Assembly: GCA_903914175.1 (NCBI GenBank)
Contig: CAIWNX010000288.1
Coordinates: forward strand, 1-34,861
Reading direction: 5' to 3'
Length of the DNA: 34,861 nucleotides
From: an uncultured beta proteobacterium
GTDB taxonomy: Bacteria > Pseudomonadota > Gammaproteobacteria > Burkholderiales > Burkholderiaceae_C
Part shown: positions 1-26,537 of the stretch, piece by piece
Layout of the letters: each line of letters opens with the position of its first letter
How positions within the stretch are numbered: the first letter of the stretch is position 1
Program-made: the position numbers and the translations under genes
The notes under the pieces: model-generated
What the model was told of the DNA's origin: nothing
The model's input: only the letters and a program-made list of their open reading frames with translations
The model's database searches: none

Positions 1-958
1 CGCTGGTCATCTTGTCGCCCATGATCGGCACCAGTGCCGGCAGCGGCGGGCAGCAGCGCGCGATGATTTCGTCCAGGCGTTCCATACCGGCCACCTGGCC
101 GTCGTGCGTGACCTTGAGACAGTCGGCGTTGAGCACGTCGTGACACAGTTCGCGGAAGGTCGGGTCACCGGCGGAGACCGTGCTCTTGCGATTGGCCACG
201 ATGCGCCCTAGCATGATGCAGGCACGGATCGTCGGGCGGCCGTTGTTGACGCCCAGCGTGCGGAACTCGCGCACGATGTCGACAATCGATTTGGCCTGGC
301 GCCATGGCAGGCCGGACTTGGACTGGGTGATCGCCACTTCGGTTTCGTAATCGTGGTGCCCGACCTTGATCGTAATCATGCGGTCCATCAGCGCGTCCTG
401 TGTTTTGTGGACACCGGCGTACTCTTCCGGGTTGCTGGTGAAGATGGCGCTGAACTGCGGGTGCACCTGCAGGTAGCCGTCGCCGCTGCGCGCGTCGGGC
501 AGCTCCAGCAGCCGCTCTTCCAGAATCGACAGCAGCACGTTGTTGGCTTCGGGGCGCGAGCGTGTGAACTCGTCATAAATCAGCGTGAAGCCGTATTTGC
601 AGGCGGTGGTCAGGCGGTTGTCGCCCCACTGTTTGGAGACGGTTTCTTCCTGTTTCAGCACCGAGTGGATGTAGTTGTCCACCACCTTGGTTGAGCGGTA
701 ACCGGTCTGCCCGCCGATCAGGTCGGAACTGCCGAATTCATCGTCGCCATGGATCAGGATGACCTGGCGTCCGAGCTGGGCTGCCACGTGCATCGCCAGC
801 GCCGTTTTGCCGGTGCCGGCCGGGCCGCTGAAATGGATCGGATAGCCGGCGGCGAGGTAGTCCAGCGCCCGCCCGGAGACACCCTGGATATACGGGGTCT
901 CTACAAAGTTGGCTTTCTTTTCCAACGTCAGTGTTGTCAACTCTTCTGCTTCGCTCAT
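1..958 (-). CDS. gvpN: Gas vesicle protein GvpN, AAA ATPase (C-terminal end cut by window edge)
   Basis: GvpN is a MoxR-like AAA+ ATPase needed for full-size gas vesicles. In known systems it acts in the cytoplasm during vesicle growth, probably with GvpC. I translated it from the minus strand starting at the ATG at 958-956; 319 codons are present before the edge. The Walker A motif GPAGTGKT lies at residues 45-52, Walker B (TLIYDEFTRS) at about 125-134, and a SNPEEYAGV segment follows, as is typical of GvpN. An AAGGAG ribosome site sits 8 nt before the ATG, which supports the start. It is the third gene after the gvpA promoter, about 80 bp behind the GvpC-like gene, with no terminator between. 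The usual family length suggests only a short C-terminal piece is missing. Identity is secure. Confidence 0.95.
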   Translation of the reverse strand, partial: MSEAEELTTLTLEKKANFVETPYIQGVSGRALDYLAAGYPIHFSGPAGTGKTALAMHVAAQLGRQVILIHGDDEFGSSDLIGGQTGYRSTKVVDNYIHSVLKQEETVSKQWGDNRLTTACKYGFTLIYDEFTRSRPEANNVLLSILEERLLELPDARSGDGYLQVHPQFSAIFTSNPEEYAGVHKTQDALMDRMITIKVGHHDYETEVAITQSKSGLPWRQAKSIVDIVREFRTLGVNNGRPTIRACIMLGRIVANRKSTVSAGDPTFRELCHDVLNADCLKVTHDGQVAGMERLDEIIARCCPPLPALVPIMGDKMTS

Positions 959-1038
959 CACGTCCACTCCTTGAGGGGGTTAAAACTGACCAGGCCCTTG
1001 CTGCGCAATGCGGCGACAAGCCCGATCCAAATTACGGC

Positions 1039-2082
1039 TTACTTTCTCTTGGCTTTCGCAGGTTTGGCCTTTGCCTTGGGCGCTGCAGCCTTGGGTGGTG
1101 GGGCTTTGACGGCGACGGCCTTGACCGGCGCCTTCTTGGGCACCGGCTTGGCGCTTTCACCGCGTGGCGGTGTGCTTGGCCATGGCTTGGCCGCAGCGGG
1201 TGTCGTTTTCGGTGCCGCCTTGACCGGTGCCGGTTGCGCGGCCGGTTTGAACAGTTTGGGTGCTAGCCGTGCCATGGGTGCAGTCGGCGCTGCCACCGGC
1301 GCTGCGACGGGCTTGGGTGCGGGTCGCGCCATGGTGGCTGCGGGCAATGCACGCGGCATCTTCGTGGCGGGCACGCGTGCGCCAGGGGCGCGTGTGCCGT
1401 GAAAGCCCTGCATCAGTTCAGCCAGAGAATGCGAGCGGTCGCGCCGGCATTCGGCCAGACCGGCCCATTGAATCCTGGCCATCTGGTGGTGCGCCTTGGC
1501 GAAGGACAACATCATTTGCGACACGCTGCGTGCGCGCTCGCGCCGGTCACGCGCCAGACTGGCGCCTTGCGCCGCTGCCATGCGCCGCAGCGCCTTGGTG
1601 AAGGCGGCGCGGTCGGCGTCAAATTCATGGAACAACGCGGCCACCGCATTGGAGACGTCCTGTTTCGATTCGACCAGGGCCTGGCGCAAATCGCGGCGCA
1701 TCTGACCGTGGTCCTGGCGAAAGCCCTGGCTCATGGCGCTGGCGTCGTCGCGGATGGCGAGCACCTCGGCCGAGCGACTCAGTCGATCGCTCACCAGTGA
1801 CTGGCGCAGCGTTTCGCGCATGAGTTCATGCGCCTGGCGAAATTCCTCGCTCATGACGCTGGCGTTGTCGCGGATTTCAAGTACTTCTGCCGATCGATTG
1901 ACACGATCGGCCGCTAATTCTGTTTTGAGCGCCTTGGCCATGGCCATGCGTTCGCCCTCAAAGCTGCGCAGCGCGTCGGCTGTTTGCGCCTTGATTTCAG
2001 CAACCGCGCGTCCACGCTCACGCGCAGCGGACGTCATGCCGCTCGCCGGGGAAGTTGCCATGTGTTTTCGGATGATGCTCAT
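1039..2082 (-). CDS. GvpC-like repeat protein with Pro/Ala/Lys-rich tail
   Basis: This 347-residue protein lies between gvpA and gvpN, the place where gvpC sits in several gas vesicle clusters. Residues 23-228 are built of repeats with a 40-residue period, starting near residues 23, 63, 103 and 143, with a shorter unit at 183. Recurring elements are RSAEVL, IRD(D/N)AS, MS..FRQ.H and LRQ.L.(S/A)DR. They look strongly helical, possibly coiled coil. Known cyanobacterial GvpC has 33-residue helical repeats that bind the outside of the GvpA shell and stiffen it, so the role is likely the same here. Residues 230-347 form a low-complexity Pro/Ala/Lys tail ending KPAKAKRK, which looks like histone-H1-type tails and could bind nucleic acid or polyanions. 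GAGGAG lies 9 nt before the ATG. Assignment to GvpC rests on position and repeat style, not on a diagnosed domain. Confidence 0.75.
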   Translation of the reverse strand: MSIIRKHMATSPASGMTSAARERGRAVAEIKAQTADALRSFEGERMAMAKALKTELAADRVNRSAEVLEIRDNASVMSEEFRQAHELMRETLRQSLVSDRLSRSAEVLAIRDDASAMSQGFRQDHGQMRRDLRQALVESKQDVSNAVAALFHEFDADRAAFTKALRRMAAAQGASLARDRRERARSVSQMMLSFAKAHHQMARIQWAGLAECRRDRSHSLAELMQGFHGTRAPGARVPATKMPRALPAATMARPAPKPVAAPVAAPTAPMARLAPKLFKPAAQPAPVKAAPKTTPAAAKPWPSTPPRGESAKPVPKKAPVKAVAVKAPPPKAAAPKAKAKPAKAKRK

Positions 2083-2173
2083 TTCAATTCACTCCTCGTA
2101 GGCCGGGCGCTTTGCTGATGGTGTGCGGATGGGTTCAATGGTTTGCGTGCAGCGCCGATGCGCATCGCAAAAC

Positions 2174-2216
2174 TGCTTTCCCTGCCGGGAGCAGTGAATC
2201 CCCGGCAGAGAAAGCA
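2174..2216 (-). terminator. Strong hairpin between gvpA and the GvpC-like gene (attenuator or mRNA stabiliser)
   Basis: Two 16-nt arms, 2174-2189 and 2201-2216, can pair around an 11-nt loop; the single non-Watson-Crick position is a G-U pair in the minus-strand RNA. The hairpin begins 14 nt after the gvpA stop codon. It is followed on the minus strand by GTTTTGC, so only four T residues, which fits a leaky rather than a complete terminator. The likely effect is many short gvpA transcripts and fewer that continue into the next two genes, or protection of the gvpA message from 3' decay. Confidence 0.7.
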
Positions 2217-2230
2217 ATCTGCACTGCCGC

Positions 2231-2449
2231 TTAGGCGGGTGCCGCTGCGCTGGATGTCAGGCCAATCGCTTCCGCATACTTGAGATAAGTCTCAACCGAT
2301 GCGATCACGACACGCGCTTCAATCGACAGCAGCTCGATACCGACCAGCGATACCTTGACCCAGGCGTCAATCACGATGCCCTTGTCCAGGATGCGGTCAA
2401 CCACTTCAGCCAAACTCGAAGAGTCGGTCGATTTTTGTACCTTAGCCAT
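2231..2449 (-). CDS. gvpA: Gas vesicle structural protein GvpA
   Basis: GvpA is the small hydrophobic protein that polymerises into the ribbed gas vesicle wall. This copy has 72 residues, the normal length. The family core is plain: [19 protein letters not shown], then [19 protein letters not shown] and the [13 protein letters not shown] helix, with a short Ala-rich tail. A longer reading frame extends 28 codons upstream, but the ATG at 2449-2447 is preceded by TAGGAGATTGAAA, a good ribosome site, and gives the standard GvpA N-terminus. It is the first gene after the sigma-54 promoter at 2535-2549, with a leader of about 75 nt, and is followed by a strong hairpin. Only one gvpA-type gene is visible; related genes such as gvpJ or gvpM, if present, lie beyond the left edge. 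Confidence 0.97.
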
Positions 2450-2534
2450 TTTCAATCTCCTAACGTATTGCACCCCTGGAAAACGCTCTTCAGACACGAA
2501 GTACGGGGCTAAATCCTTCGTTGCATGTTGCAAC

Positions 2535-2549
2535 GCATAGCCCGTGCCA
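2535..2549 (-). promoter_or_regulatory. Sigma-54 promoter of gvpA
   Basis: On the minus strand the sequence reads TGGCACGGGCTATGC. It matches the -24/-12 consensus TGGCACG-N4-TTGC at all but one base, and the GG and GC doublets have the required spacing. Transcription would start near 2524, 75 nt before the gvpA ATG. A gene for a sigma-54 activator sits 6 kb upstream in the same locus, and an activator-like dyad lies about 160 bp upstream of the start site. Confidence 0.82.
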
Positions 2550-2674
2550 GTTCAAGGTGTTTATGGCGCTTCGCGTTTATTCGCGATTCATGGCGAATTT
2601 GACCAATACCGTTGCGCAAACCGGCGCCGTAGCGGGTCTGAAGCAGGGTCGGTGTTTGCAGGGAGGCGGATACG

Positions 2675-2694
2675 CTATGGAACAAAGTCCATAG
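2675..2694. promoter_or_regulatory. Upstream activator dyad for the gvpA promoter
   Basis: The 20-nt sequence CTATGGAACAAAGTCCATAG has perfect 7-bp inverted arms. It lies about 160 bp upstream of the predicted gvpA start, the usual distance for NtrC-type enhancer sites. Its core TGGAACAAAGTCCA differs at one base from the core repeated twice at 10585-10618, upstream of the other sigma-54 promoter. It follows the response regulator stop codon by only 7 nt and has no T-run on either side, so it is unlikely to be a terminator. Confidence 0.7.
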
Positions 2695-2701
2695 CTGGGG
2701 T

Positions 2702-3088
2702 TCAGCTTACCGTCTGTAACACAGCGTGGACGGCATTCATGATGTCGTCATGGCGAAACGGCTTGGTCACGAAGGCAGCGATCAGGCCGCTGGCCAGTGT
2801 TTGCATGATCAGGCTGTCGTCTTTGTAGAAATAGCCCGACACCAGGATCACGGGGGCCGGACAGTTGGTTTCGCTGCGGATGCGCCGCGCCAGTTCCACG
2901 CCATCGGCGTCACCGAGTTTGGCGTCGAGCAGGATCAGGTCGCAGACCGACTTGGCCAGGTAGTGCATGGCTTCACCGCCGCTGCCGGCCTGGCTCACCA
3001 TAAAGCCATTGCGCCGCAAAATCATGGCCAGCGCCCAGCGCACATCGGGCTCGTCATCGACGATCAGCACGGTTTGGGCTTGGCGCAT
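2702..3088 (-). CDS. Single-domain response regulator (receiver only)
   Basis: This 128-residue protein is a CheY-like receiver domain with no output domain. The acidic pair is D11-D12, the phosphoacceptor is D55 (LILLDAKLG), the switch Ser is S84 and the conserved Lys is K109 in FVTKPF. The start ATG overlaps the kinase stop codon as TGATG, so the two are translationally coupled and very likely form a cognate pair. Because it has no DNA-binding part, it must act by protein contact, by phosphotransfer, or as a phosphate sink, for example with the receiver of the NtrC-type regulator in the same operon. That last link is inference. It is the last gene before the gvpA promoter region. Confidence 0.9.
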
Positions 3089-4611
3089 CAGACCACCACC
3101 GCCAGTGGCAGGCGCACGACAAAGGTCGTGCCCTGGCCTTCGACACTGCTCTCGACCGCAATCGTGCCACCGTGCTGCTCGACCAAGGTGTGGCAGATGG
3201 ACAGTCCCAGGCCGGTGCCTTTGCCAACCGGTCGCGTTGTGAAAAAGGGGTCGAAGATGCGGTTCAGATGGGTTGGCGCGATGCCGCAGCCGTTGTCGCG
3301 CACGCAGATCAGCGCCTTGTCGCCCTCGCGCCGTGTCAGCACGCTGACATCGCCGCCGTTGGTGATGGACTGGTAGGCGTTGAGCACCAGGTTCATGATC
3401 ACCTGCTGCAGCAGATTGGAATTGCCCATGACCGGCAGCAGGGTTTCGCCGTAGTGTTCGATCAGGTTGATCTTCTGCAGCTTGGCTTGCGGCGTCAGCA
3501 CGTTGAGTGTCTCGCGCACCACCGCAACCAGGTTCAGCGATTCATGCTGGTTGCTCGACGAAGGGCGGGCAAAGCGCAGCAGGTTTTCGATGATGAGGGA
3601 CGAGCGCTCGATGCCGTCAAGAATCTTGCCGACACACTCCTGCTGAAACGCCGGATCTTCGCTGGGCTCGAGCAGGAACTGGGCGGCGGAAAAACTCACT
3701 GACAGGGGGTTGCGCAATTCATGCGCGATACCACTGGCCATCACGCCCAGTGCCGCCAGTTTCTCGCTTTGGTAGAGGTGCTGCTCGAGCGCGCGGCGCT
3801 CCAGCAGGTCGCGTCCCACCGCCACGATGCCACTGACCCGGCCGGAGTCGTCGCGGATCGGCGAGAACGACCAGTCCACCGGAATCAGCGTGCCAGAGAG
3901 CGAGACCAGGTTGATTTCGCTGAAGAACTCGACGACACCGCCGTCCACCAGTTGCCGGATGATGGCCGCCATGTCCTTGCGTCGCGTCGTCTCCGACAGG
4001 TCGGCCAATTGCTTGCCACGCGCGACGTCGCTGCGGTAGCCCGAGATGCGCTCCGCCGCCGTGTTCCAACTGGTGATGCAGCCGTTCGGATCGGTCGAGA
4101 CCACCAGATCGTGGGCGCATTCGACCACGCTGGCCAGATGGCGCTCGGCCATGCGGACCTTTTCGCTGAGCTGCAGTTTCTCGGTGATGTCGTCCATCAC
4201 CAGCATGGCGTGCTCCACCGCCTCGCCGGTCTTGATCGGGATGACGGTATAGAAATAGCTGCGGATCGGAACGCCCGGTGCGCGGTAGGTCATCTGCGAG
4301 CCCGACAGTGCCAGCCCGCTGTTAAAGACCTTGCGGATCTTGGCTTCGAGCTGCGTGAACTCCATGATCGTTTCCGGAAACACCTCGCGAATCGGCTTGC
4401 CAATGGTGTTGTCTTCGGTGCGCCTGGACTTCTCGATGAAGTTGCGATTGGCCGACACCACGCGCAGCGACGGATCGATCAGGATCAGTGAAAACGGGAT
4501 ATTCCCGAGCAGCATCTGGTAGAGCTTTTCGTACCAACCTTCGGACGATGCGGTGGACGGCGGATTCATGCCGACGCTGGCCTGGCTGGCGCGTGCGCCG
4601 GTCTTTTTCAT
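3088..4611 (-). CDS. Soluble PAS-domain sensor histidine kinase
   Basis: The 507-residue protein has no membrane segment, so it senses a cytoplasmic signal. A PAS domain covers about residues 30-145 and a second about 155-270; a short helical linker leads to the HisKA H-box [10 protein letters not shown] with phosphorylated H297. The HATPase domain shows the N-box ([10 protein letters not shown]411), the G1 box DNGCGI (439-444) and the G2 box GKGTGLGL (463-470). It resembles NtrB-type kinases, which suits a partner of an NtrC-type regulator. A longer frame starts at 4656, but the ATG at 4611 overlaps the GvpF/L stop as ATGA and has a GGGAG upstream. The PAS ligand cannot be read from the sequence; oxygen, redox, light or energy state are all possible. 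Confidence 0.92.
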
Positions 4612-5435
4612 GCGGGGGGACTCCCGAGTTCCGGGCAAAAGTTGTAGGGCGGCCAAGGGCCGCGCAATTCGAGGCTCAGGCCGATGGGCGTGTAGGCTTC
4701 CTGTTGTTCGGCCAGGGCGCTGCGGAAGTCATCGATCGTGTCCGGGCCCAGCAGGTAGCCGCTGTTGAAGACCATGCGCTCGGCGCGTCCGGTGACGGCG
4801 CTGGCGTGCAAGCGCAGCGCAGCAGCGCCCTCGGCGCGCAGTGCCAGGGCTTCGCCCAGGTCATGGCTGATGCGCGCGAGCGCGCCTTCGAGCGCGGCGT
4901 CGATCTTGCTGTCAAGCTGCTTTTGCTGCAGGTAGCGCACCCCGGGTGAGGGCGACATCGCGGCGCGCCGCGCCTGAATATCGGGGTCTTCGGTGGCGAT
5001 GATGTTGCGTGCCTGCTCTCCCACCAGATAGCCCTTGACGCTCCATTCGGCCTTGTCGCGCAGTTTGTCCAGTGCCTGATCGATGGCGCCGTGGTGCTGG
5101 TCCATGAACAGCTTGAGGCTCTCGCGTGAGTGGTACAGCGTGCCGAACTTGACCGGCAGCACCGGTGAGACCGCCATGATTCTCGCCACCACGGCCTCAT
5201 GGCGCAAGGCGCGCTCGCCGAGCCAGGACAGGTCTTGCAGATTGGCCTCGGAGAACTCGCTCAAGAGCACCTCGCTGATCACCGCCACCACACCGGCGCT
5301 GGGCAGTGCCGCAACACCGTAATCGGTGTCAACACTGAGCCCTTTTTGCGCGGCGAGTGTCTGTACCGTTGCCAGGCAGTCGATGCGCGCCAGGCAGTAG
5401 AGGTAGATGCCGGTGCTGGCGACGGAGTCGCTCAT
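4608..5435 (-). CDS. Gas vesicle protein GvpF/GvpL family
   Basis: The 275-residue protein matches the GvpL/GvpF family. Visible hallmarks are the N-terminal IYLYCLAR strand, the central VLPVKFGTLYHSRESL segment, and the C-terminal AERMVFNSGYLL and LRGPWPPYNFCPE segment. GvpF and GvpL are minor or accessory proteins that bind GvpA and help nucleate the vesicle. Whether it is functionally F or L cannot be decided without a tree. Both ends are joined to neighbours by ATGA overlaps: its start overlaps the stop of the Cdc48-like ATPase gene, and its stop overlaps the start of the kinase gene. It is thus translated together with chaperone-like and signalling genes. Confidence 0.92.
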   Translation of the reverse strand: MSDSVASTGIYLYCLARIDCLATVQTLAAQKGLSVDTDYGVAALPSAGVVAVISEVLLSEFSEANLQDLSWLGERALRHEAVVARIMAVSPVLPVKFGTLYHSRESLKLFMDQHHGAIDQALDKLRDKAEWSVKGYLVGEQARNIIATEDPDIQARRAAMSPSPGVRYLQQKQLDSKIDAALEGALARISHDLGEALALRAEGAAALRLHASAVTGRAERMVFNSGYLLGPDTIDDFRSALAEQQEAYTPIGLSLELRGPWPPYNFCPELGSPPA

Positions 5436-7579
5436 GGTGGGCTGCTCGTGGATGGCGCGTCAAAGTGCCGGGCCTGGATCAGCAGCGGGCCGGCGCTGGC
5501 CGACTTCTTGCCGCCCTGATCGATTCGTTCACGCACCGCGTTCAGCGCAGCGCGGTTGCACAGCGCGCCCAGATCGGCGCCAGTCAGACCGCTGCTGGCA
5601 GCAGCGAGGGCCGCCAGGTCCACATTTTTGGCCACGGGCTTGCCGCGCACTTGCACTTGCAAAATGGCCAGACGTTGCGCCTCATCGGGCAGGCCGATTT
5701 CAACGACGACGTCAAAGCGCCCTGGCCGCAGCAGCGCCGGGTCGACCATGTCGGGCCGATTGGTAGCGGCCAGCACCAGCACGCCCTTGAGTTTTTCGAC
5801 GCCGTCGAGTTCGGCCAGGAACTGACCGACCACGCGCTCGCTGACACCGGCGTCGGATGCGCCACTGCCGCGCCGTGGCACCAGTGCATCGATCTCGTCG
5901 AAGAAGACCAGACAGGGCGCTGCCTGCTTGGCTTTCTGAAACACTTCGCGCACGGCGCGTTCCGATTCGCCGATGTACTTGGACATCAGCGCCGGCCCTT
6001 TGACTGAAATGAAGTTGACCTGGGTCGCGCTGGCCGCAGCCTGCGCCAGCAGCGTCTTGCCGCAACCGGGTGGGCCGCACAGCAGCACGCCCTTGAGCGG
6101 CTTGACCCCGGCCTGCTCGAACAGCTCACCGTATTGCAGCGGCCACTCCAGCAGTTCGCGCAGCATGCGCTTCGGGCCTTCCAGACCGCCGACGTCGTCC
6201 CAGCGGGTGTTGGGCACTTCCACAAATACTTCGCGCAGCGCCGAGGGCTCGATCTCGCGCAGCGCGGCCAGAAAATCGTCCTTGCACAGTTCGAGTTTTT
6301 GCAGCGACTCGTAGGGCAGCGTGGCCTGGGCAAAGTCGATCTCGGGAAAGATGCGGCGCACGCAGATCATGGCGGCTTCGCGGCACAGCGCTTCCAGATC
6401 AGCGCCGACAAAACCGTGCGTGATGTCGGCCAGGCGTGTCAGGTCAACATCGCTCGCAACCGGCATGCCGCGCGTGTAGATCTCCAGAATGGCCAGACGT
6501 CCGTGCCGGTCCGGAATCGGGATGCCGATCTCGCGGTCAAAGCGTCCCGGTCGCCGCAGCGCCGGATCGATGGCATTGGGGATGTTGGTGGCGGCGATCA
6601 CGATCACCTGGCCGCGCGCCTTCAGGCCATCCATCAGGCTCAGCAGTTGCGCCACGACACGGCGCTCGACCTGGTGTTCACCACCAAGGCCTTCGCGCTT
6701 GGGTGCGATCGAATCGATCTCGTCGATGAAGATGATGCTCGGTGCCTGCTTGGTCGCATCGTCAAACAGCTTGCGCAGAAAGCCTTCGGACTCGCCGTAG
6801 AACTTCTGCATGATCTCGGGGCCGCTGATGGAGAAGAAGCGCACGTCGGTCTCGTGCGCCACGGCGCGCGCAATCAGCGTCTTGCCGCAACCCGGCGGCC
6901 CATACAGCAGCACGCCCTTGGGCGCGTCGATGCCCAGGCGCACAAAGACTTCGGGGAAACGCAGCGGCAGCTCGATGATTTCGCGCACGCGCTGCACTTC
7001 GCGCTTGAGGCCGCCAATGTCCTCGTAGGAAAAGGTGGCGCGCCCGGCCGGGTTGGCGCTGCGCGCCTCGGTCTGCGCCGGGCCGACCGACAGCAGCGTC
7101 GAAGGCGCGATCAGCACCGGCCCTTTGGGTTGCGTTTCGCGCACCAGAAAATCGAGTGAGCGGTTGCCAAACAGCGTGCCGCGGATGCGATCGCCCTCGA
7201 TCACCGGCAGGCCATCGAGCCGCGCGCCGATGTACTGCAGGTCGCGGTCCGACAGACCCGGCGCGGTGGGCGAGAGCACGATGCGCTGCGCTGCTTGCGC
7301 CGAGATTTTTTGCACCGCCACCGCGTCGTCCAGCGCAACGCCGGCGTTGCTGCGTGACAGGCCGTCGAGCTGGATGCGCGCGCCGCCGCGGTCGTCCTTG
7401 TAGGCCGGCATCAGCTTGCACACGGTGCGGCGTTTGCCAACCACTTCGACAATGTCGCCGATCGCGGCACCCAGTGCCACGATGTCGGCGGGGTCCATGC
7501 GCGCCAGCGCGCGACCGACGTCTTTGCTCAGCGCTTCGGTGACTTTGAGGCGCGTCGCTTTATCGGCGGTTTTTTTCAT
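5432..7579 (-). CDS. Cdc48/p97-like double AAA+ ATPase
   Basis: The 715-residue protein has the Cdc48/VAT layout. A Cdc48-type N-terminal domain covers about residues 8-150. The first AAA domain has Walker A GPPGCGKT at 227-234 and Walker B IIFIDEID at 282-289. The second has GPPGCGKT at 502-509 and LVFFDEID at 557-564. Family members are hexameric unfoldases that pull proteins out of complexes. In this operon it is coupled by ATGA overlaps to an Hsp20 protein upstream and to GvpF/L downstream, which suggests it remodels or recycles gas vesicle proteins. That role is inference. The ATG at 7579 was chosen over an upstream frame start because it overlaps the Hsp20 stop and gives a normal N-terminus (MKKTADK). 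Confidence 0.93.
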   Translation of the reverse strand: MKKTADKATRLKVTEALSKDVGRALARMDPADIVALGAAIGDIVEVVGKRRTVCKLMPAYKDDRGGARIQLDGLSRSNAGVALDDAVAVQKISAQAAQRIVLSPTAPGLSDRDLQYIGARLDGLPVIEGDRIRGTLFGNRSLDFLVRETQPKGPVLIAPSTLLSVGPAQTEARSANPAGRATFSYEDIGGLKREVQRVREIIELPLRFPEVFVRLGIDAPKGVLLYGPPGCGKTLIARAVAHETDVRFFSISGPEIMQKFYGESEGFLRKLFDDATKQAPSIIFIDEIDSIAPKREGLGGEHQVERRVVAQLLSLMDGLKARGQVIVIAATNIPNAIDPALRRPGRFDREIGIPIPDRHGRLAILEIYTRGMPVASDVDLTRLADITHGFVGADLEALCREAAMICVRRIFPEIDFAQATLPYESLQKLELCKDDFLAALREIEPSALREVFVEVPNTRWDDVGGLEGPKRMLRELLEWPLQYGELFEQAGVKPLKGVLLCGPPGCGKTLLAQAAASATQVNFISVKGPALMSKYIGESERAVREVFQKAKQAAPCLVFFDEIDALVPRRGSGASDAGVSERVVGQFLAELDGVEKLKGVLVLAATNRPDMVDPALLRPGRFDVVVEIGLPDEAQRLAILQVQVRGKPVAKNVDLAALAAASSGLTGADLGALCNRAALNAVRERIDQGGKKSASAGPLLIQARHFDAPSTSSPP

Positions 7580-8196
7580 GGCCGGGCCTTCTTTGCTTTC
7601 TCTTTCTTGAGCACGATCTCCAGCACGCCGTTGCGGCACTGAAAGCTCAAGCCCTTTTGCGCAAAACTGGCCGGCAGCAGGAGCTCCTTGCGGTAATTCG
7701 GTTCGCCCTTTTTCGTGGCGATCAGCAGGATGTCATCGTGCAACTCGATCTGCAGATTCGCTTCCTCAATACCGGGCACCTCGGCCACGATCAGCACGCG
7801 GGTGGGCTCGTCAAACAGATCAAGCATGGGTTCGCGAATTTCGTGCACCGCGACCAGCTTGCCATCCTCGTCCTTGCGGATGTTGCCAAAGGGTTCCACC
7901 TTGACGCCGCCCTTGTCGCCAATGCCGGACTTGATGGAAAAGCCATAGACGCCCTTGGCCTTCGAGTCGGATCCGAACTTGAACTCGCCGCTTTTGTTCG
8001 TGACGCCGCCGGACTGTTCGGCCTGCTCGACCAGCTTGCCCAGTTGCTCGACCAGGGTGCCCAGGCCCGAGAAGAAACCGTTGCCCGCTGTTTCGGTTCC
8101 GGTCTTGCCAAACGCTGCGCCGAGCCGGCGACCGATTTCGCCCAGACGTTCCTTGCCCTGTGCGAAATCGTCGGAAAGATTTTTCTTGTCAACCAT
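7576..8196 (-). CDS. Hsp20-type small heat shock protein, GvpH-like
   Basis: The 206-residue protein ends in an alpha-crystallin domain (about residues 115-200): VLIVAEVPGIEEANLQIEL, DDILLIATKK and the closing NGVLEIVLKK strand typical of Hsp20 proteins. Residues 1-110 are a longer and more polar N-terminal region, with a possible helix at 20-65, than in general Hsp20 chaperones. GvpH of haloarchaea and of some proteobacterial gas vesicle clusters is Hsp20-like, so GvpH is the best comparison; it may keep hydrophobic GvpA or other Gvp proteins soluble. An AGGAG lies 8 nt before the ATG at 8196, which rules out the longer upstream frame. The stop overlaps the start of the Cdc48-like gene. Confidence 0.85.
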   Translation of the reverse strand: MVDKKNLSDDFAQGKERLGEIGRRLGAAFGKTGTETAGNGFFSGLGTLVEQLGKLVEQAEQSGGVTNKSGEFKFGSDSKAKGVYGFSIKSGIGDKGGVKVEPFGNIRKDEDGKLVAVHEIREPMLDLFDEPTRVLIVAEVPGIEEANLQIELHDDILLIATKKGEPNYRKELLLPASFAQKGLSFQCRNGVLEIVLKKEKAKKARP

Positions 8197-8246
8197 GGCC
8201 CAAACTCCTGTGTGAATGTGATTCAAAGATGACGCGTCAGGGGTTT

Positions 8247-9800
8247 TTAGGCCACGGGCTTGTAGACATCCTTCATGAATTGCGTTGACGAAATTTCGTA
8301 CACCTTGAGTTTGGTGTGAATCGTCTTGTAGTCGATGCGCAGCGTGCGTGCGGCCAGCGCCTTGTTGCCGTGGCTTTTCTCCAGCACGCGCAACAGGATG
8401 GCGCGCTCGACCTGTGCCGTCGCTTGCGCCACCAATTCCTTTAGCGACAGGTCGGTGCCATCGGCCAGGCTGCTCTCGGGCGCGCAAAACGGGCAGGTTT
8501 CCCTGGTGCTGCTTTTGGCTGGCACGCGCTCGGGCATCTTCAATTCGGTCGCCTGGGCGCGCTGGTCGAGCATGCCCAGCAGTTCAGGCAGGATCAAGCC
8601 TTCCGGGTGGTCGCACAGGAGAACGGCGCGGCGCAGGTGGTTGCGCAATTCGCGCGCGTTGCCGTGCCAGTCATAACGCTGCAGGATGCCCCAGGCGTTG
8701 GTCGACAGGCCTTTGACCTGCTTGTCCAACTCGGTGTTGGTTTGCGCCAGGAAGCGCTGCGTCAGGAACACCAGGTCTTCCTTGCGCTCGCGCAAGGGGG
8801 GGATGCGGATGGAATACTCGGCCAGGCGGTGGTACAGGTCTTCGCGAAACTCACGCCGCTCCACCATGCTCAGCAGGTTGGCGTTGGTCGCCGCGACGAC
8901 GCGAAAGTCCACTTTCTTCTCGCGCGTGCTGCCAATGCGGTGGATGCGCCGCGTCTCCAGCGCCCGCAGCAACTTGCCCTGCAGCGCCAGCGGCAGGTTG
9001 CCGATTTCATCGAGGAAGATGGTGCCGCCGTCGGCCTGCTCGAAGGCGCCAGCCTTGGCCTGGTGGGCGCCCGTGAAAGCACCTTTTTCGTGGCCGAACA
9101 ATTCGCTCTCGATCAGCGACTCGGCGATGGCGCCGCAATCGACCGCCACCAGCGGCTTGTCGGCGCGCAGGCTCAGGGCGTGGATCGCCTGCGACACCAG
9201 TTCCTTGCCGGAGCCCGATTCACCTGTGACCAGAATCGAGAAGTTGGTCCGCGCCACCAGTTCAACCTCGCGCTGGATGCCCTTGATGCTGGGGCTGTTG
9301 CCCATCGAATGCAGCAGAAAATCTGCTTGCCGTGGCGTATCGACGATGCGCCGGACTTGTGACCTCGCTGCTTTTTCCGCCAGCGCGCCATGCACGGTGT
9401 GCAGCACGTCCGTGTTCTTGAACGGTTTGGTGATGTAGTCCCAGGCGCCGGCGCGAACCGCTCGCGCCGCGTCGTAGGGTTTGCCGTTGCCCGTGACCAT
9501 GATGACGGGAATCGCCTTGTCGAGCAGCTTGATGCGCGTGAGCACCTCGAAGCCGTCCATGTCGGGCAGGCCAATGTCGAGCAGCACGATGTCGGGCGTG
9601 TGGCGCTGGATACTGGCCAGGGCATCTTCTCCACTCGCTGCCGGCAGCGGAGTGAAACCGGCTTGGCGCATGACGTTGGTCAGAACCCAACGCGCGTCTT
9701 CCTGGTCGTCCACGATCAGCACCTTGATCGCTGCGCGGCTTGCGACATTGGGCACAAGCGCTGGCACGCTTGCTTCGTTGACGGGTCGTTGTTGGTTCAT
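8247..9800 (-). CDS. Sigma-54-dependent NtrC-family response regulator
   Basis: The 517-residue protein has the full NtrC layout. The receiver domain (about 25-140) has D31-D32, phosphoacceptor D75 and K125. The AAA+ domain (about 168-405) carries Walker A GESGSGKE at 193-200, the sigma-54 contact loop GAFTGA at 240-245, Walker B TIFLDE at 260-265 and the RIPPLRERKEDL segment. A Fis-type helix-turn-helix closes the protein (about 465-502). The linker between AAA+ and HTH holds a CPFC motif (C436, C439), which might bind metal or sense redox; this is only a suggestion. Both visible sigma-54 promoters belong to this locus, so it is the natural activator of gvpA and of its own operon. It starts in a 4-nt overlap with the preceding gene. 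Confidence 0.95.
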   Translation of the reverse strand: MNQQRPVNEASVPALVPNVASRAAIKVLIVDDQEDARWVLTNVMRQAGFTPLPAASGEDALASIQRHTPDIVLLDIGLPDMDGFEVLTRIKLLDKAIPVIMVTGNGKPYDAARAVRAGAWDYITKPFKNTDVLHTVHGALAEKAARSQVRRIVDTPRQADFLLHSMGNSPSIKGIQREVELVARTNFSILVTGESGSGKELVSQAIHALSLRADKPLVAVDCGAIAESLIESELFGHEKGAFTGAHQAKAGAFEQADGGTIFLDEIGNLPLALQGKLLRALETRRIHRIGSTREKKVDFRVVAATNANLLSMVERREFREDLYHRLAEYSIRIPPLRERKEDLVFLTQRFLAQTNTELDKQVKGLSTNAWGILQRYDWHGNARELRNHLRRAVLLCDHPEGLILPELLGMLDQRAQATELKMPERVPAKSSTRETCPFCAPESSLADGTDLSLKELVAQATAQVERAILLRVLEKSHGNKALAARTLRIDYKTIHTKLKVYEISSTQFMKDVYKPVA

Positions 9801-10399
9801 GCCGGCGATTCCGGTTGTCCGCTCAGACCGGGAAGTAAATTCCGGACCAGAATGTCGGGGTTGAGCAAAGGTTCGATGTCATGGGCCAGGCCCAGAAACA
9901 GCAAACCGATTTCGTTGGTCAGCAGCGTTTCATTGATGCGCTGCGCCATGAAGCGGTCACGCAGCAGCAGCAGTTCGCGCCCTTGCGCGCGCAGCAACTG
10001 CTCGTCGTTGGCGCCGGGTTGCGCCGGCCGGGGTTGGTGCAATTGATACTCCCGCAGCAGCAGATTGGCATCTTCGGTTCCCATCAGGCGTGCGCCCTGC
10101 GCCATCAGGTCCAGCAGCAGCCGGTGGTTTTTGCTTCCCTGACGCGCAACGTCGCGCACGATCTCGGCTTCCTTGGCGCAGACTGGCAGGCCGTCCTGGT
10201 ACAGGCGCACCGCAGTGCAAGGCAATTCAAGCGAAATGATGCTCTGGCTGATGCCGTCCCAAATCTCGTCGATGGATTTCAGATGGGCCAGCCATTTTTC
10301 GTGGCCAAAGCGGTCCAGGTACGCCTGTTCGGTTTGGTCACGCAGCGAGCCCATGTCCTGTGCGGTATGGATGATGGGAATCTTGAGAAGGGTTCGCAT
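9797..10399 (-). CDS. Conserved-looking protein of unknown function, first gene of the gas vesicle regulatory operon
   Basis: I do not recognise this 200-residue protein. It has no signal peptide or membrane segment and is predicted mostly helical. Notable stretches are the N-terminal IPIIHTAQDMGSL, an EKWLAHLKSIDEIWDGI helix, an LELPCTAVRLYQDGLPVC region with two Cys, and the C-terminal LFLGLAHDIEPLL. It is the first gene behind the sigma-54 promoter at 10470-10484, and its stop overlaps the NtrC-type regulator start as ATGA, so the two proteins are made together. That suggests a regulatory partner or sensor, but no function can be assigned. No strong ribosome site precedes the ATG at 10399. 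Confidence 0.8.
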   Translation of the reverse strand: MRTLLKIPIIHTAQDMGSLRDQTEQAYLDRFGHEKWLAHLKSIDEIWDGISQSIISLELPCTAVRLYQDGLPVCAKEAEIVRDVARQGSKNHRLLLDLMAQGARLMGTEDANLLLREYQLHQPRPAQPGANDEQLLRAQGRELLLLRDRFMAQRINETLLTNEIGLLFLGLAHDIEPLLNPDILVRNLLPGLSGQPESPA

Positions 10400-10469
10400 G
10401 CGTCAGTTCGGGCTGTGCCGGACAAGCGTGTTTGCGGACCTGAGCTTGTCACCAGCTAGGCAGGACAAA

Positions 10470-10484
10470 GCAATAGCTGTGCCA
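10470..10484 (-). promoter_or_regulatory. Sigma-54 promoter of the gas vesicle regulatory operon
   Basis: On the minus strand the sequence is TGGCACAGCTATTGC followed by T. It matches TGGCACG-N4-TTGCW at every position but one, with correct GG-N10-GC spacing. The start would be near 10459, about 60 nt before the ATG of the 200-residue protein. The NtrC-type regulator gene is second in this operon, so it would activate its own synthesis. Confidence 0.83.
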
Positions 10485-10584
10485 CCGGCAACATTTGGAA
10501 ACACAGCCTGTGTGCGCTTCAAATTCGAGTGCGGCGCGGTGTTGGCAAGGCGTGCCCGGGGATTGAAATAGGGAAATTGAACCA

Positions 10585-10618
10585 TGGAACAAATTCCATT
10601 CATATGGAATTTGTTCCA
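10585..10618. promoter_or_regulatory. Double activator dyad upstream of the regulatory operon
   Basis: The 34-bp site has perfect 15-bp inverted arms (10585-10599 and 10604-10618) around TCAT. Each arm is itself an imperfect dyad of type GGAA-N4-TTCC: TGGAACAAATTCCA and its complement. The two dyad centres are 20 bp apart, about two helical turns, so two dimers could bind on one face. Its centre is about 143 bp upstream of the predicted start. The core matches the single site upstream of gvpA at 13 of 14 bases. Confidence 0.72.
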
Positions 10619-10620
10619 GT

Positions 10621-10664
10621 GTGAGAATTTCATACGGATGCTCGTGGCCTAATGAAAATTTCAT
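10621..10664. repeat. Pair of TGARAATTTCAT palindromes, 31 bp apart
   Basis: GTGAGAATTTCAT (10621-10633) and ATGAAAATTTCAT (10652-10664) match at 11 of 13 bases. The second is a perfect dyad of 6-bp arms around one A. The 31-bp spacing is about three helical turns. They lie beside the activator dyad and could be sites for a different dimeric regulator of either divergent operon. Confidence 0.5.
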
Positions 10665-10864
10665 CGGCGTCGATTTGCCCCCTGATTTGGACTTGCGCTT
10701 CTTCTGTCGCCGATTATCGGACTCTTGCGCCGGTCCGGCGAGATTCTTTTTGACCCTGCTCGCGCTAGGGTTGAAACAGTGCCGGGTTAGCCGTTTCACG
10801 GGCGGTGCAGCTGGGGCGATTGGTGTGATGAAGCGGCGTCGTGCCACGGCGAGGCAAGGCTATC

Positions 10865-13800
10865 ATGCAGCTTTCGTCTTCGAAAGCCCCACCGATGTCC
10901 ATGGTCCAGTTGGCACTGCGTCGCCCCTACACCTTTATCGTGATGGCGATGCTGATTGTGCTGGCGACACCGTTTGCGCTGCTGTCGATGGCGACCGACA
11001 TTTTTCCCGAGATCAATATTCCGGTGGTGAGCATCATCTGGAACTATGGCGGCCTGTCGGCGCAGGAAATGGGGCAGCGCATCGCCGGGCAGAGCGAGCG
11101 CGGCCTGACCACCACCGTCAGCGACATCGAGCACATCGAGTCGCAGTCGCTGGCCAGTGTCTCGGTCATCAAGGTCTTCTTCCAACCGACCGCCAATATC
11201 CAGACGGCGATCGCCCAGGTGGTGGCTGCGATGCAGACCCAGGTGCGCCAGTTGCCGCCGGGCATCACGCCGCCGCTGGTGATCAAGTATTCGGCCTCCA
11301 GCATTCCGGTGGTGCAGCTTGCGCTTTCCAGCCCGACGCTGCCCGAGCAGGCGGTGTTCGACGCTGCGGTCAACGTGCTGCGCCCGCAACTGATCACGAT
11401 CCCGGGCGCGGCCGTGCCTTTTCCGTTTGGTGGCAAGAACCGGCTGATCTCGGTCGATCTCGACACGGCGGCACTGCAAGCGCGTGGGCTGGCACCGATC
11501 GACGTGGTCAACGCCATCAATTTGCAAAACCTGATCCTGCCATCGGGAACGGCCAAGTTCGGCGGCACCGAGTACGCGGTGCAGATGAACGGCTCGCCCG
11601 ACGCCTTTGCCGGCCTGGCCGACCTGCCGGTGCGCACGGCTGGCAACAGCACCACCTACCTGCGCGATGTGGCGCAGGTGCGCGACGGCTTTTCGCCGCA
11701 GACCAATATCGTGCGCCAGGACGGCGCGCGCGGCGTGCTGCTGTCGGTGTTGAAGAACGGTGGCGCTTCCACGCTCGACATCGTCGCCAATCTGCGCGCC
11801 TTGCTGCCGCGCGTGGCGCAGGTGCTGCCACCCGACGTCAAGGTGACGCCGCTGTTCGACCAGTCGGTGTTCGTCAAGGCCGCCGTCAAGGGTGTCGTGC
11901 TGGAGGCGCTGATTGCGGCTGCGCTGACCGCCGCCATGGTGCTGCTGTTCCTGGGCAACTGGCGCAGCACGCTGATCATCGCGCTCACCATTCCGCTCTC
12001 GATCCTGGCTTCGATCCTGGTGCTGCGCATGCTGGGCGAAACACTCAACCTGATGACGCTCGGTGGCCTGGCGCTCTCGGTCGGCATCCTGGTTGATCAG
12101 GCGATCGTGACGATCGAAAACATCGAGCGCCATCTGCACATGGGCAAGCCGATCATGGAGGCAATCGAGGTCGGTGCCGGCGAGATCGGTGTGGCCGCTT
12201 TCGTCTCGACGCTGTGCATCTGCATCGTCTTTGTGCCGATGTTCTTTCTCTCGGGTGTGGCGCGCTTTCTGTTCGTGCCACTGGCCGAGGCCGTGGTGCT
12301 GGCGATGATCGCCTCCTACCTGCTGTCGCGCACGCTGGTGCCGACGCTGGTGCTGCTGATGATGGGCGGCACGCAGGGCGCGCCAACAACGCAGCGTGTC
12401 AGCCTGTTGCAGCGCCTGTACCGCGCCTTTGACCAGCGCTTCGAGCGCGTGCGCCGTGCCTACACGCTGGCGCTGTCAGCCCTGCTGTCGCACCGGCGCG
12501 GCTTTGCCATCCAGTTCATGGGTTTTTGCCTGCTGTCGTGCCTGCTGTTCCCGCTGCTCGGGCGCGACTTTTTCCCGAGCGTCGACGCCGGACAGATCCG
12601 CTTGCATCTGCGCGCGCCCACTGGCACCCGCATCGAGGAGACGGCGCGCCTGGCCGATGCGGTGGAGGTGGTCATCCGCGAGATCATCCCGCCTGACCAG
12701 TTGGAGACCGTGCTCGACAATCTGGGCGTGCCCAACAGCGGCATCAACCTCTCGTACAGCAACGCCGGCACCATCGGCACGCTCGACGGCGAAATCCTGC
12801 TGTCGCTGCGCGAAGGTCACGCCCCGACCGAAGGCTTTGTCACCCGCTTGCGCGCTGAGTTGCCCAAGCGTTTTCCGGGCATCGAGTTTTTCTTCCAGCC
12901 GGCCGACATCGTGACGCAAATCCTGAACTTCGGTTTGCCCGCTGCCATCGATGTGCAGTTCACCGGCGCCGATCAGGCCGGCAATGCGCTGCTGGCCTCT
13001 GAATTGACCGACGCGATCCGCAAGATTCCGGGTGCGGTCGATGCCCATGTGCACCAGCGCCTGAACGCGCCGGCGCTGAGTCTGCAGATGGACCGCTCGC
13101 GCCTGCAGCAGCTCGGTTTGTCGGCCGCCAACGTCGGGCAGAACGTGCTGATCTCGCTCTCGGGCAGTTCGCAGACGGCGCCGGCCTTCTGGCTCAATCC
13201 GCAAAACGGCGTCGTCTACAACATCGCCGTGCAGACACCGCAGTACCAGGTTGATTCGCTCGACGCGCTGCTCAACATGCCGGTCGGCAGCGGCATCGCC
13301 TCGGCCAGCACCAGTGGCAGCACGCAACTGCTGGGCAATCTGGTCGAGGTGACACCGAGCCGTATGGTGGCAGTGGCCTCGCGCTACAACATCCTGCCCG
13401 CGGTCGATGTGTTCGTCAGCGTGCAGGGCACCGATCTGGCCAGTGTGGCAACACGTGTGCAGGCGCTGGTCGACCAGGTTCGGCCCAAGCTGCCGCGCGG
13501 CAGCGAGGTGGTGCTGCGCGGCCAGGTCGAGACCATGCAGGCGTCCTTTATCGGCCTCGGTGTTGGCCTGGTGATGGCCATCGTGCTGGTGTATCTGCTG
13601 ATCGTGGTTAACTTCCAATCGTGGACCGATGCGCTGGTCATCATCGCGGCCTTGCCGGCGGCGCTGGCCGGCATCGCCTGGACACTGTTCATCACCGGCA
13701 CCACGCTGAGCGTGCCGGCGCTCACCGGCGCCATCATGACCATGGGCGTGGCGACAGCCAACAGTATTTTGCTGATCTCGTTTGCGCGCCAGCGGCTGGA

Positions 13801-25737: not shown

Positions 25738-26537
25738 TGCCGCGTGTCATCGTCACCCGTCCGGCGAGCGAGGCGCAGCGCTGGGTGCACGAACTGGCGG
25801 CACAGGGCTTTGATGCGCAGTGCCTGGCGCTGATTGAAATCAAGCCGAGCGGGCAAACAGACGATCTGGCGCAGGCCTGGCAGCAGTTGCCGACCTATCT
25901 CGCTGTGATGTTTGTCAGCGGCAATGCCGTCAGCCATTTTTTTGCGGCCAAAAACGCGGCTGCTGCAGCTTTTGGTGGTCAGCCCCAAGGCAGGCCACGC
26001 GCCTGGGCCACTGGCCCTGGCACGGCGCGTGCGCTGCTGCGCGCGGGCGTGGCGCCGCACTGCGTGGACGCGCCGGCGCCGGATGCTGGGCAGTTTGATT
26101 CCGAAGCGCTGTGGGCTCAGGTGGCCTCACAGGTGGTTGCCGGCGCGCGGGTTCTGATCGTGCGCGGTGCCGACGCCGCAGACAACGACGGAGCAGGTTC
26201 CGGGCGTGAATGGTTTGCACAGCAGGTGGCGGCAGCGGGTGGACAGGTGGATTTTGTGGTGTCCTACGAGCGTCGCGCACCCACTCTGGACGCCAGCGCG
26301 CAAGCCCTGGCAAAGCAGTCCGCCAGCGATGGCTCGGTCTGGTTGTTCAGCAGCGCGCAGGCGCTGGCCAACCTGAATGCCGTGCTGCCGGGGCAAAACT
26401 GGGCCGCTGCACGCGCATTGGCAACGCATCCGCGCATCGCGCAGGCGGCCAGGGCCGCTGGTTTTGGTGTTGTTTTCGAGTCGCGTCCAACTCTGGTGGA
26501 TGTGGCCGCAGCGCTCGGGCAACACTTTAAAACTTAA
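25737..26537 (+). CDS. hemD: Uroporphyrinogen-III synthase
   Basis: HemD closes and inverts ring D of hydroxymethylbilane to give uroporphyrinogen III. The 266-residue protein has the weakly conserved family pattern: VIVTRPASEAQRWVHEL at the N-terminus, a VMFVSGNAVSHFF strand-helix, RVLIVRGADAADN in the middle, and WLFSSAQALANL later. Sequence identity in this family is always low, so position directly behind hemC with a TGATG overlap is important evidence. Length is normal. Confidence 0.93.
   Translation: MPRVIVTRPASEAQRWVHELAAQGFDAQCLALIEIKPSGQTDDLAQAWQQLPTYLAVMFVSGNAVSHFFAAKNAAAAAFGGQPQGRPRAWATGPGTARALLRAGVAPHCVDAPAPDAGQFDSEALWAQVASQVVAGARVLIVRGADAADNDGAGSGREWFAQQVAAAGGQVDFVVSYERRAPTLDASAQALAKQSASDGSVWLFSSAQALANLNAVLPGQNWAAARALATHPRIAQAARAAGFGVVFESRPTLVDVAAALGQHFKT

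Follow-up and report, generated by a model that had tools for sequence, protein, structure and literature searches.

A candidate GvrA box upstream of sigma-54 promoter elements at bacterial gas vesicle genes, with a predicted lineage-specific self-loop

We analysed a gas vesicle (gvp) locus on contig CAIWNX010000288.1 of an uncultured beta proteobacterium (assembly GCA_903914175.1), using as the window the entire contig of 34,861 nucleotides from a 4.05 Mb genome in 322 contigs, and describe a palindromic box that is a candidate binding site of the locus-encoded activator GvrA. The gvp genes lie on the minus strand in two predicted operons. From 10399 to 2702, seven genes have ends that overlap or almost touch, so a single transcription unit is likely. 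The first gene of this operon 2 is orfX (9797..10399), which encodes a 200-amino-acid protein with no Pfam or NCBIfam match and is kept beside gvrA (8247..9800); there follow a gvpH-like gene of the Hsp20 family (7576..8200), the CDC48-family AAA ATPase gene of the gvp cluster (5432..7580), gvpF/gvpL (4608..5435, PF06386), a gvrB-like PAS histidine kinase gene (3088..4611) and a gvrC-like single-domain response regulator gene (2702..3088). Operon 1 begins with gvpA (2231..2458, PF00741) and runs through genes for a GvpC-like protein without a Pfam match and for GvpN, continuing past the contig end. GvrA is an NtrC-type sigma-54 activator with a receiver domain, an AAA+ domain bearing the GAFTGA motif and an HTH_8 domain, and its helix-turn-helix, which includes a DYKT segment, is encoded at 8298..8417 on the minus strand; an rpoN gene is found in the same genome. 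An earlier note on this DNA, made from the sequence alone, had placed a GAFTGA-type activator in the locus and its gene inside one of two operons, and both points are borne out by the GvrA domains and by the position of gvrA as second gene of the packed run. Proteins of the orfX type (~200 amino acids) recur across gvp clusters of several phyla.

Each operon is preceded by a -24/-12 (sigma-54) element matching 10 of 11 consensus positions, TGGCACGGGCTATGC at 2549-2535 for gvpA and TGGCACAGCTATTGC at 10484-10470 for the gvrA operon. The main putative GvrA box upstream of gvpA, CTATGGACTTTGTTCCATAG at 2675..2694, matches all 14 positions of CTATGGA-N6-TCCATAG, and a degenerate second box (2695..2714, 6/14) lies 20 bp farther upstream and overlaps the gvrC stop. 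Upstream of operon 2 are a putative box on the minus strand, TGGAACAAATTCCA at 10605..10618, and an inverted copy 20 bp apart on the plus strand (10585..10598); the segment that comprises these two inverted 14-bp sites, 10585-10618, is a perfect inverted repeat with arms of 15 nt and a loop of 4 nt. Both near-consensus promoters and both dyads had been recognized in the earlier note and hold to the base, to which we add the strand of the promoters (minus for both) and the positions of the box centres relative to the start predicted from each -24/-12 element: -161.5 for gvpA, and about -153 and -133 for the second operon. The dyad core put forward there, TGGAACAAA(T/G)TCCA, was rejected as the regulon motif: it is too narrow, its CAAA centre varies among relatives, and the conserved parts are the CTATGG/CCATAG halves.

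Within the genome, TGGAACAAANTCCA has three exact matches, all at this locus, and in the window it has three matches with at most one mismatch versus 0.00 expected from 100 shuffles. When up to two mismatches are allowed, the genome-wide count of 61 does not exceed the 70 of the reversed control, which leaves the exact sites as the only ones to stand out. The sigma-54 pattern TGGCAC-N6-TGC occurs four times in the window versus 1.15 expected, and the two occurrences beyond the gvp promoters (26018-26032, plus strand; 33253-33267, minus strand) overlap open reading frames (ORFs). Sites resembling those of integration host factor between box and promoter have 0-3 mismatches at best, figures obtained without a control from which no claim is drawn. 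The 34-bp palindrome of operon 2 varies symmetrically between species, with CAAA/TTTG here and TGAA/TTCA in the related locus L059, a change for which selection on both sites and palindrome repair are inseparable here.

To place the box in a wider context, we assembled 88 gvp or gvrA loci (1,236,420 bases) after removal of five duplicate records. A GvrA search returned 12 gvrA loci in 11 of 89 genomes of the genus, the window's own included, and one clear outside relative, G037 (51% identity), among 300 genomes of the order, in which other matches score like general NtrC proteins; scanning named genomes for GvpN gave 242 confirmed loci, of which the best 80 were used. A class-wide sample without Serratia 39006 yielded a single further GvrA locus in 368 other genomes (G908), and the stretch around it, which does not extend to the main gvpA, contains neither a box of at least 11 nor a sigma-54 element ahead of its orfX. 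The box pattern was drawn from seven loci and scored over 14 positions, the sigma-54 element over 11.

A 20-bp dyad, CTATGG(A/C)-N6-TCCATAG, is common to relatives between gvrC and gvpA. Conservation in close relatives was the check set beforehand for the proposed motif, and it is found at gvpA: among the 12 loci of the window's GvrA clade that have gvpA on the same contig, 11 carry a box of at least 11/14 (the exception is L080) and 11 a sigma-54 element of at least 9/11 (the exception is L083, a metagenome-assembled genome labelled Acidobacteria). Across 30 gvpA upstream regions, the best box score gave a shuffle p of at most 0.017 in 17 and above 0.1 in 13, the latter including both gvpA copies of L080 and six Planctomycetales-type loci (L087, L088, L090-L093). 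Box centres lie between -99.5 and -183.5 relative to the predicted start in 17 gvpA regions, a set that excludes two orphan copies and includes L080, where the box is non-significant. The box recurs in distant Acidobacteria (L105, L107, L109) and Desantisbacteria (L124), with sigma-54 scores of 7, 8, 9 and 9. The two gvpA copies of L080, at 8415 and 16407, are 97% identical to that of the window, and each has an 11/11 sigma-54 element and the 5′ leader described below without a recognisable box; these copies may use a different activator site.

Boxes of at least 12/14 occur 24 times in the 88 loci, and in 19 of these a sigma-54 element of at least 9/11 lies downstream in the direction of the gvp genes, as it does in 1.6% of random 155-bp stretches. 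Three of the remaining occurrences have sigma-54 scores of 7 or 8, and two (L083, L139) have none. As the pattern was taken from seven loci, the independent figure is that for box matches in loci outside the defining set, of which 10 of 15 are linked to a sigma-54 element. Of 25 occurrences of the half-site pair TGGA-N6-TCCA, 13 are linked to sigma-54 elements (8 of the 13 in defining loci), and 11 permuted palindromes gave 0 or 1 linked occurrence each. The exact pattern CTATGG-N8-CCATAG is present once each in 14 of the 89 genus genomes (reversed control, 5/89); in seven of these (G000, G326, G325, G300, G332, G316 and G315), all with gvp genes, a sigma-54 element scoring 9 or more lies downstream, and the other seven have no such element. 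The fuller pattern has an exact match in six of seven genomes, always at gvpA. A looser form of the box with a variable gap matched 81 of the 89 genus genomes and was discarded as noise.

Tandem upstream sites and autoregulation are characteristic of NtrC-family enhancer-binding protein systems, and the geometry found here resembles the traits of that family, with paired dyads about two helical turns apart located 100-184 bp upstream of -24/-12 promoters; the target in this case differs in being an organelle gene set. The dyads fall within the 80-200 bp upstream range of bacterial enhancer-binding protein sites and are linked to sigma-54 promoters beyond chance. The 88 loci contain 23 pairs of sites (each at least 7/8) at a spacing of 14-100 bp, of which 12 are 19-22 bp apart and five exactly 20. 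Around 15 gvpA-type boxes, the mean score at offset -20 is 6.93 versus a mean of 3.43 (standard deviation 0.87) over other offsets, and the next highest offsets, +14, -16 and -14, may represent the palindrome overlapping itself. An arrangement suited to two dimer sites on one helix face is thus found both in operon 2, at 20 bp, and at gvpA, with the degenerate partner at -20. CTATGGA-N6-TCCATAG is not known as a site of NtrC, NifA, ZraR, CbrB or other members of the family.

Co-occurrence points to GvrA as the protein that binds the box. A box of at least 12 lies upstream of gvpA in 11 of 24 loci with a DYKT-type GvrA, in one of six with the DRMT type and in none of three with other types; it is present in none of seven contigs that reach 7 kb upstream without a GvrA and in four of 26 shorter contigs without one (L072, L073, L074, L086), and 22 of the 88 loci have no gvpA match strong enough to count. 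L072 and L074 come from genomes G300 and G332, whose gvrA sits on another contig. The idea that the dyads are the motif of the locus's own activator is therefore supported as far as linkage with sigma-54 elements and a DYKT-type GvrA goes, and we infer the identity of the binder from that co-occurrence. We consider it probable (about 0.8) that the dyads are upstream activating sequences of GvrA, acting with RpoN-polymerase at gvpA and at the operon of gvrA itself. In this mechanism GvrA would be activated, probably by phosphorylation of its receiver with the PAS kinase GvrB as the likely donor, and its dimers would occupy paired sites with a spacing of about two helical turns, located some 130-160 bp ahead of the start. 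DNA looping would then allow RpoN-polymerase to be opened at gvpA and at the gvrA operon, and action on its own operon would close a positive feedback loop that should make vesicle production steep or switch-like. The direction of regulation, the extent of the operons and the switch behaviour are all predictions from the arrangement of genes and sites.

Several observations weigh against this assignment. The gvpA of L080 has a sigma-54 element and no box (9/14, shuffle p 0.55), and L083 has a box without a sigma-54 element. Thirteen of the 24 DYKT-type loci lack a box of at least 12 directly upstream of gvpA; among alphaproteobacterial loci, the DYKT-type L195 and L196 have gvpA sigma-54 elements with no such box, so the DYKT segment alone does not predict the box. 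No gvrA was found in two box-carrying genomes, G315 (L073) and G316, whose assemblies are incomplete (82 and 86% complete). The 20-bp pattern, when a single mismatch is tolerated, gave 18 matches in seven genomes versus 22 for the reversed control. Many of the loci are close kin, so the linkage counts are not independent events, and L057, whose GvrA is 90% identical to that of the window, has decayed operon-2 sites.

The predicted self-loop has a narrower distribution than the gvpA box. Gene order and packing in the window fit a single unit in which the regulator gene follows its own predicted promoter and site. Of the 15 related loci whose upstream sequence extends to 320 bp or more, four have a sigma-54 element scoring at least 9 ahead of orfX-gvrA, namely the window, L057, L058 and L059, and in the last three the counterpart of the window's element is TGGCATAGCTATTGC; operon-2 boxes are intact in three of the four, with both retained in L059 and one in L058. 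In the GvrA tree these four loci fall in one six-row clade (100/100) together with L060 and L061. Since the four of 15 loci with the operon-2 module all belong to one clade, positive autoregulation probably arose as a derived wiring specific to this lineage, and the feedback loop predicted first from the window is supported by the arrangement of sites in this clade and not elsewhere among the related loci. In G037 a box pair and sigma-54 element stand directly after gvrA, a placement that would leave the regulator outside the loop. Among five distant loci with orfX, the Scalindua locus L112 has a perfect TATGGGATTAATCCCATA together with a 10/11 sigma-54 element upstream of orfX, perhaps an independent gain, and none of the remaining four has an element scoring 9 or higher. 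The two remaining rows of the clade are GvrA paralogues: L060 (3538-4983) is a second gvrA of genome G326 with no gvp genes on the fetched stretch, and L061 (3239-5400) is fused to a C-terminal HD domain (PF13487), a type of fusion with similar examples elsewhere, on a contig with no gvp genes.

A narrower role for GvrA would confine it and sigma-54 to gvpA, leave the gvrA operon under another promoter and make its module weak or vestigial. This is how the Serratia 39006 cluster appears to work, where according to two reports (PMC4982088, PMC11778176) the gvrA start maps to a promoter of the sigma-70 type and loss of rpoN leaves gvrA expression unaltered, and it would suit both the absence of the operon-2 module from 11 of the 15 related loci and the decayed sites in L057. 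The window itself argues the other way, with a 10/11 promoter and two perfect sites at operon 2, as does the retention of both sites in L059 and one in L058; a scan of 9700-11000 for a sigma-70 consensus found none, a weak point as 0.2 would be expected by chance. We regard this version as unlikely.

The dyads might instead be operators of a different protein, such as a quorum-sensing repressor or one acting on the divergent RND efflux-type operon (from 10841). L057, L058 and L059 carry the efflux-type ORF as well, so the neighbourhood gives no argument against an efflux operator at operon 2, and in Serratia SmaR is known to repress gvpA1 directly. Against this stand the same box before gvpA, away from efflux genes, its company of GvrA and sigma-54 elements, and its position at enhancer distance and not over the promoter; the efflux operator is disfavoured, and we hold the whole alternative to be improbable. 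More improbable still is the reading of the dyad at 2675-2694, a palindrome that begins 7 bp beyond the gvrC frame, as a hairpin in the RNA or a terminator at the gvrC 3′ end. In 13 sites, position 4/17 is unpaired in six and position 7/14 in nine, and a two-sided change that keeps Watson-Crick pairing occurs in one site only; no T run follows the dyad, and the same sequence precedes a non-gvp gene (L168). The hairpin was rejected on pairing. Activation by GvrA from the box is the reading we retain.

The sigma-54/GvrA principle is already known. In Serratia sp. ATCC 39006, a sigma-54 consensus is described at gvpA1, and full gvpA1 expression needs GvrA, GvrB and GvrC; no GvrA-binding sequence is mentioned in the available portions of these sources (PMC4982088, PMC11778176), and none is named in the titles and abstracts returned by searches of an open-access collection, from which we do not claim its absence from print. 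As in the window, the Serratia cluster has two operons, a cluster-encoded NtrC-type GvrA and a -24/-12 promoter before gvpA. It differs in that gvrA is reported to head the second operon behind an RpoN-independent promoter of the sigma-70 type, whereas here orfX comes first behind a sigma-54 element and two boxes. The alphaproteobacterial plasmid clusters of Methylosinus sp. C49 and Methylocella tundrae share the order gvrA-gvpF-gvrB-gvrC-gvpA and a sigma-54 element before gvpA, but lack such a box at gvpA, and the 400 bp ahead of gvrA contain no sigma-54 element scoring 9 or higher. Nothing in the parts available of PMC4982088, PMC11778176, PMC11999139 and PMC5374385 corresponds to the box, to the self-loop of this clade or to the additional targets proposed below.

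A regulon of two operons, as the earlier note drew it, stands as to the operons but is too small, since an orphan gvpA on another contig of the same genome has a similar module. On contig C293 (L189 1652-1943), a conserved leader at 1652-1712 precedes a gvpA product 98.6% identical over residues 2-75, with an 11/11 sigma-54 element and a 10/14 box; G333 (L190) has the same arrangement. In the window this gvpA 5′ leader spans ~61 nt (2465..2525, minus strand) and contains the possible stems CCCC...GGGG and CGAAG...CTTCG. Conservation is high across 16 copies of it, which comprise 12 distinct sequences and include one before a non-gvp gene, and a search with the leader model found 13 places in 11 of the 89 genus genomes, the copies used to build it among them. 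An Rfam search of window positions 1-12000 at E of at most 1 returned no match to the leader and two weak animal microRNA matches at 2160-2229, below gathering scores. Covariation was not significant, its score being reached by 50 of 500 shuffles and its percentage paired by 96 of 500, and seven single-sequence folds showed no clear advantage over shuffles (z +0.88 to -1.29), so the structure is only a proposal. In G315 (L168 1-1382, minus strand), a 14/14 box, a 10/11 sigma-54 element and the leader precede a large non-gvp ORF with no Pfam or NCBIfam match and no significant match in the Protein Data Bank (PDB). Because its 18 relatives include four with PF00353 and one named DUF4214 protein, we take its product to be probably a large surface or secreted repeat protein of RTX/DUF4214-type relation.

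A more speculative reading, less likely than not, is that of an old bacterial flotation regulon marked by the GvrA box whose wiring can evolve: mostly it would cover gvpA only, the Rhodoferax-type clade and separately a Scalindua-type planctomycete would loop gvrA into it, and in the genus a module with a shared, possibly structured leader would have reached an orphan gvpA and a probable surface-protein gene. If so, spread of the module to that gene would tie buoyancy to the cell surface. The box offers a concrete, mutable candidate site for a regulator so far known by genetics, predicts self-amplifying and non-self-amplifying gas vesicle clusters, and turns bacterial commitment to floating into a question for footprinting and reporter tests. 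Enhancer, promoter and leader are also parts for heterologous gas vesicle expression, where clusters move between hosts. Beyond the operon-2 boxes, a separate palindrome, CCGATTATCGG at window positions 10710-10720, lies closer to the divergent RND efflux-type operon, appears by eye mostly retained in L057-L059, and is perhaps the operator of that operon.

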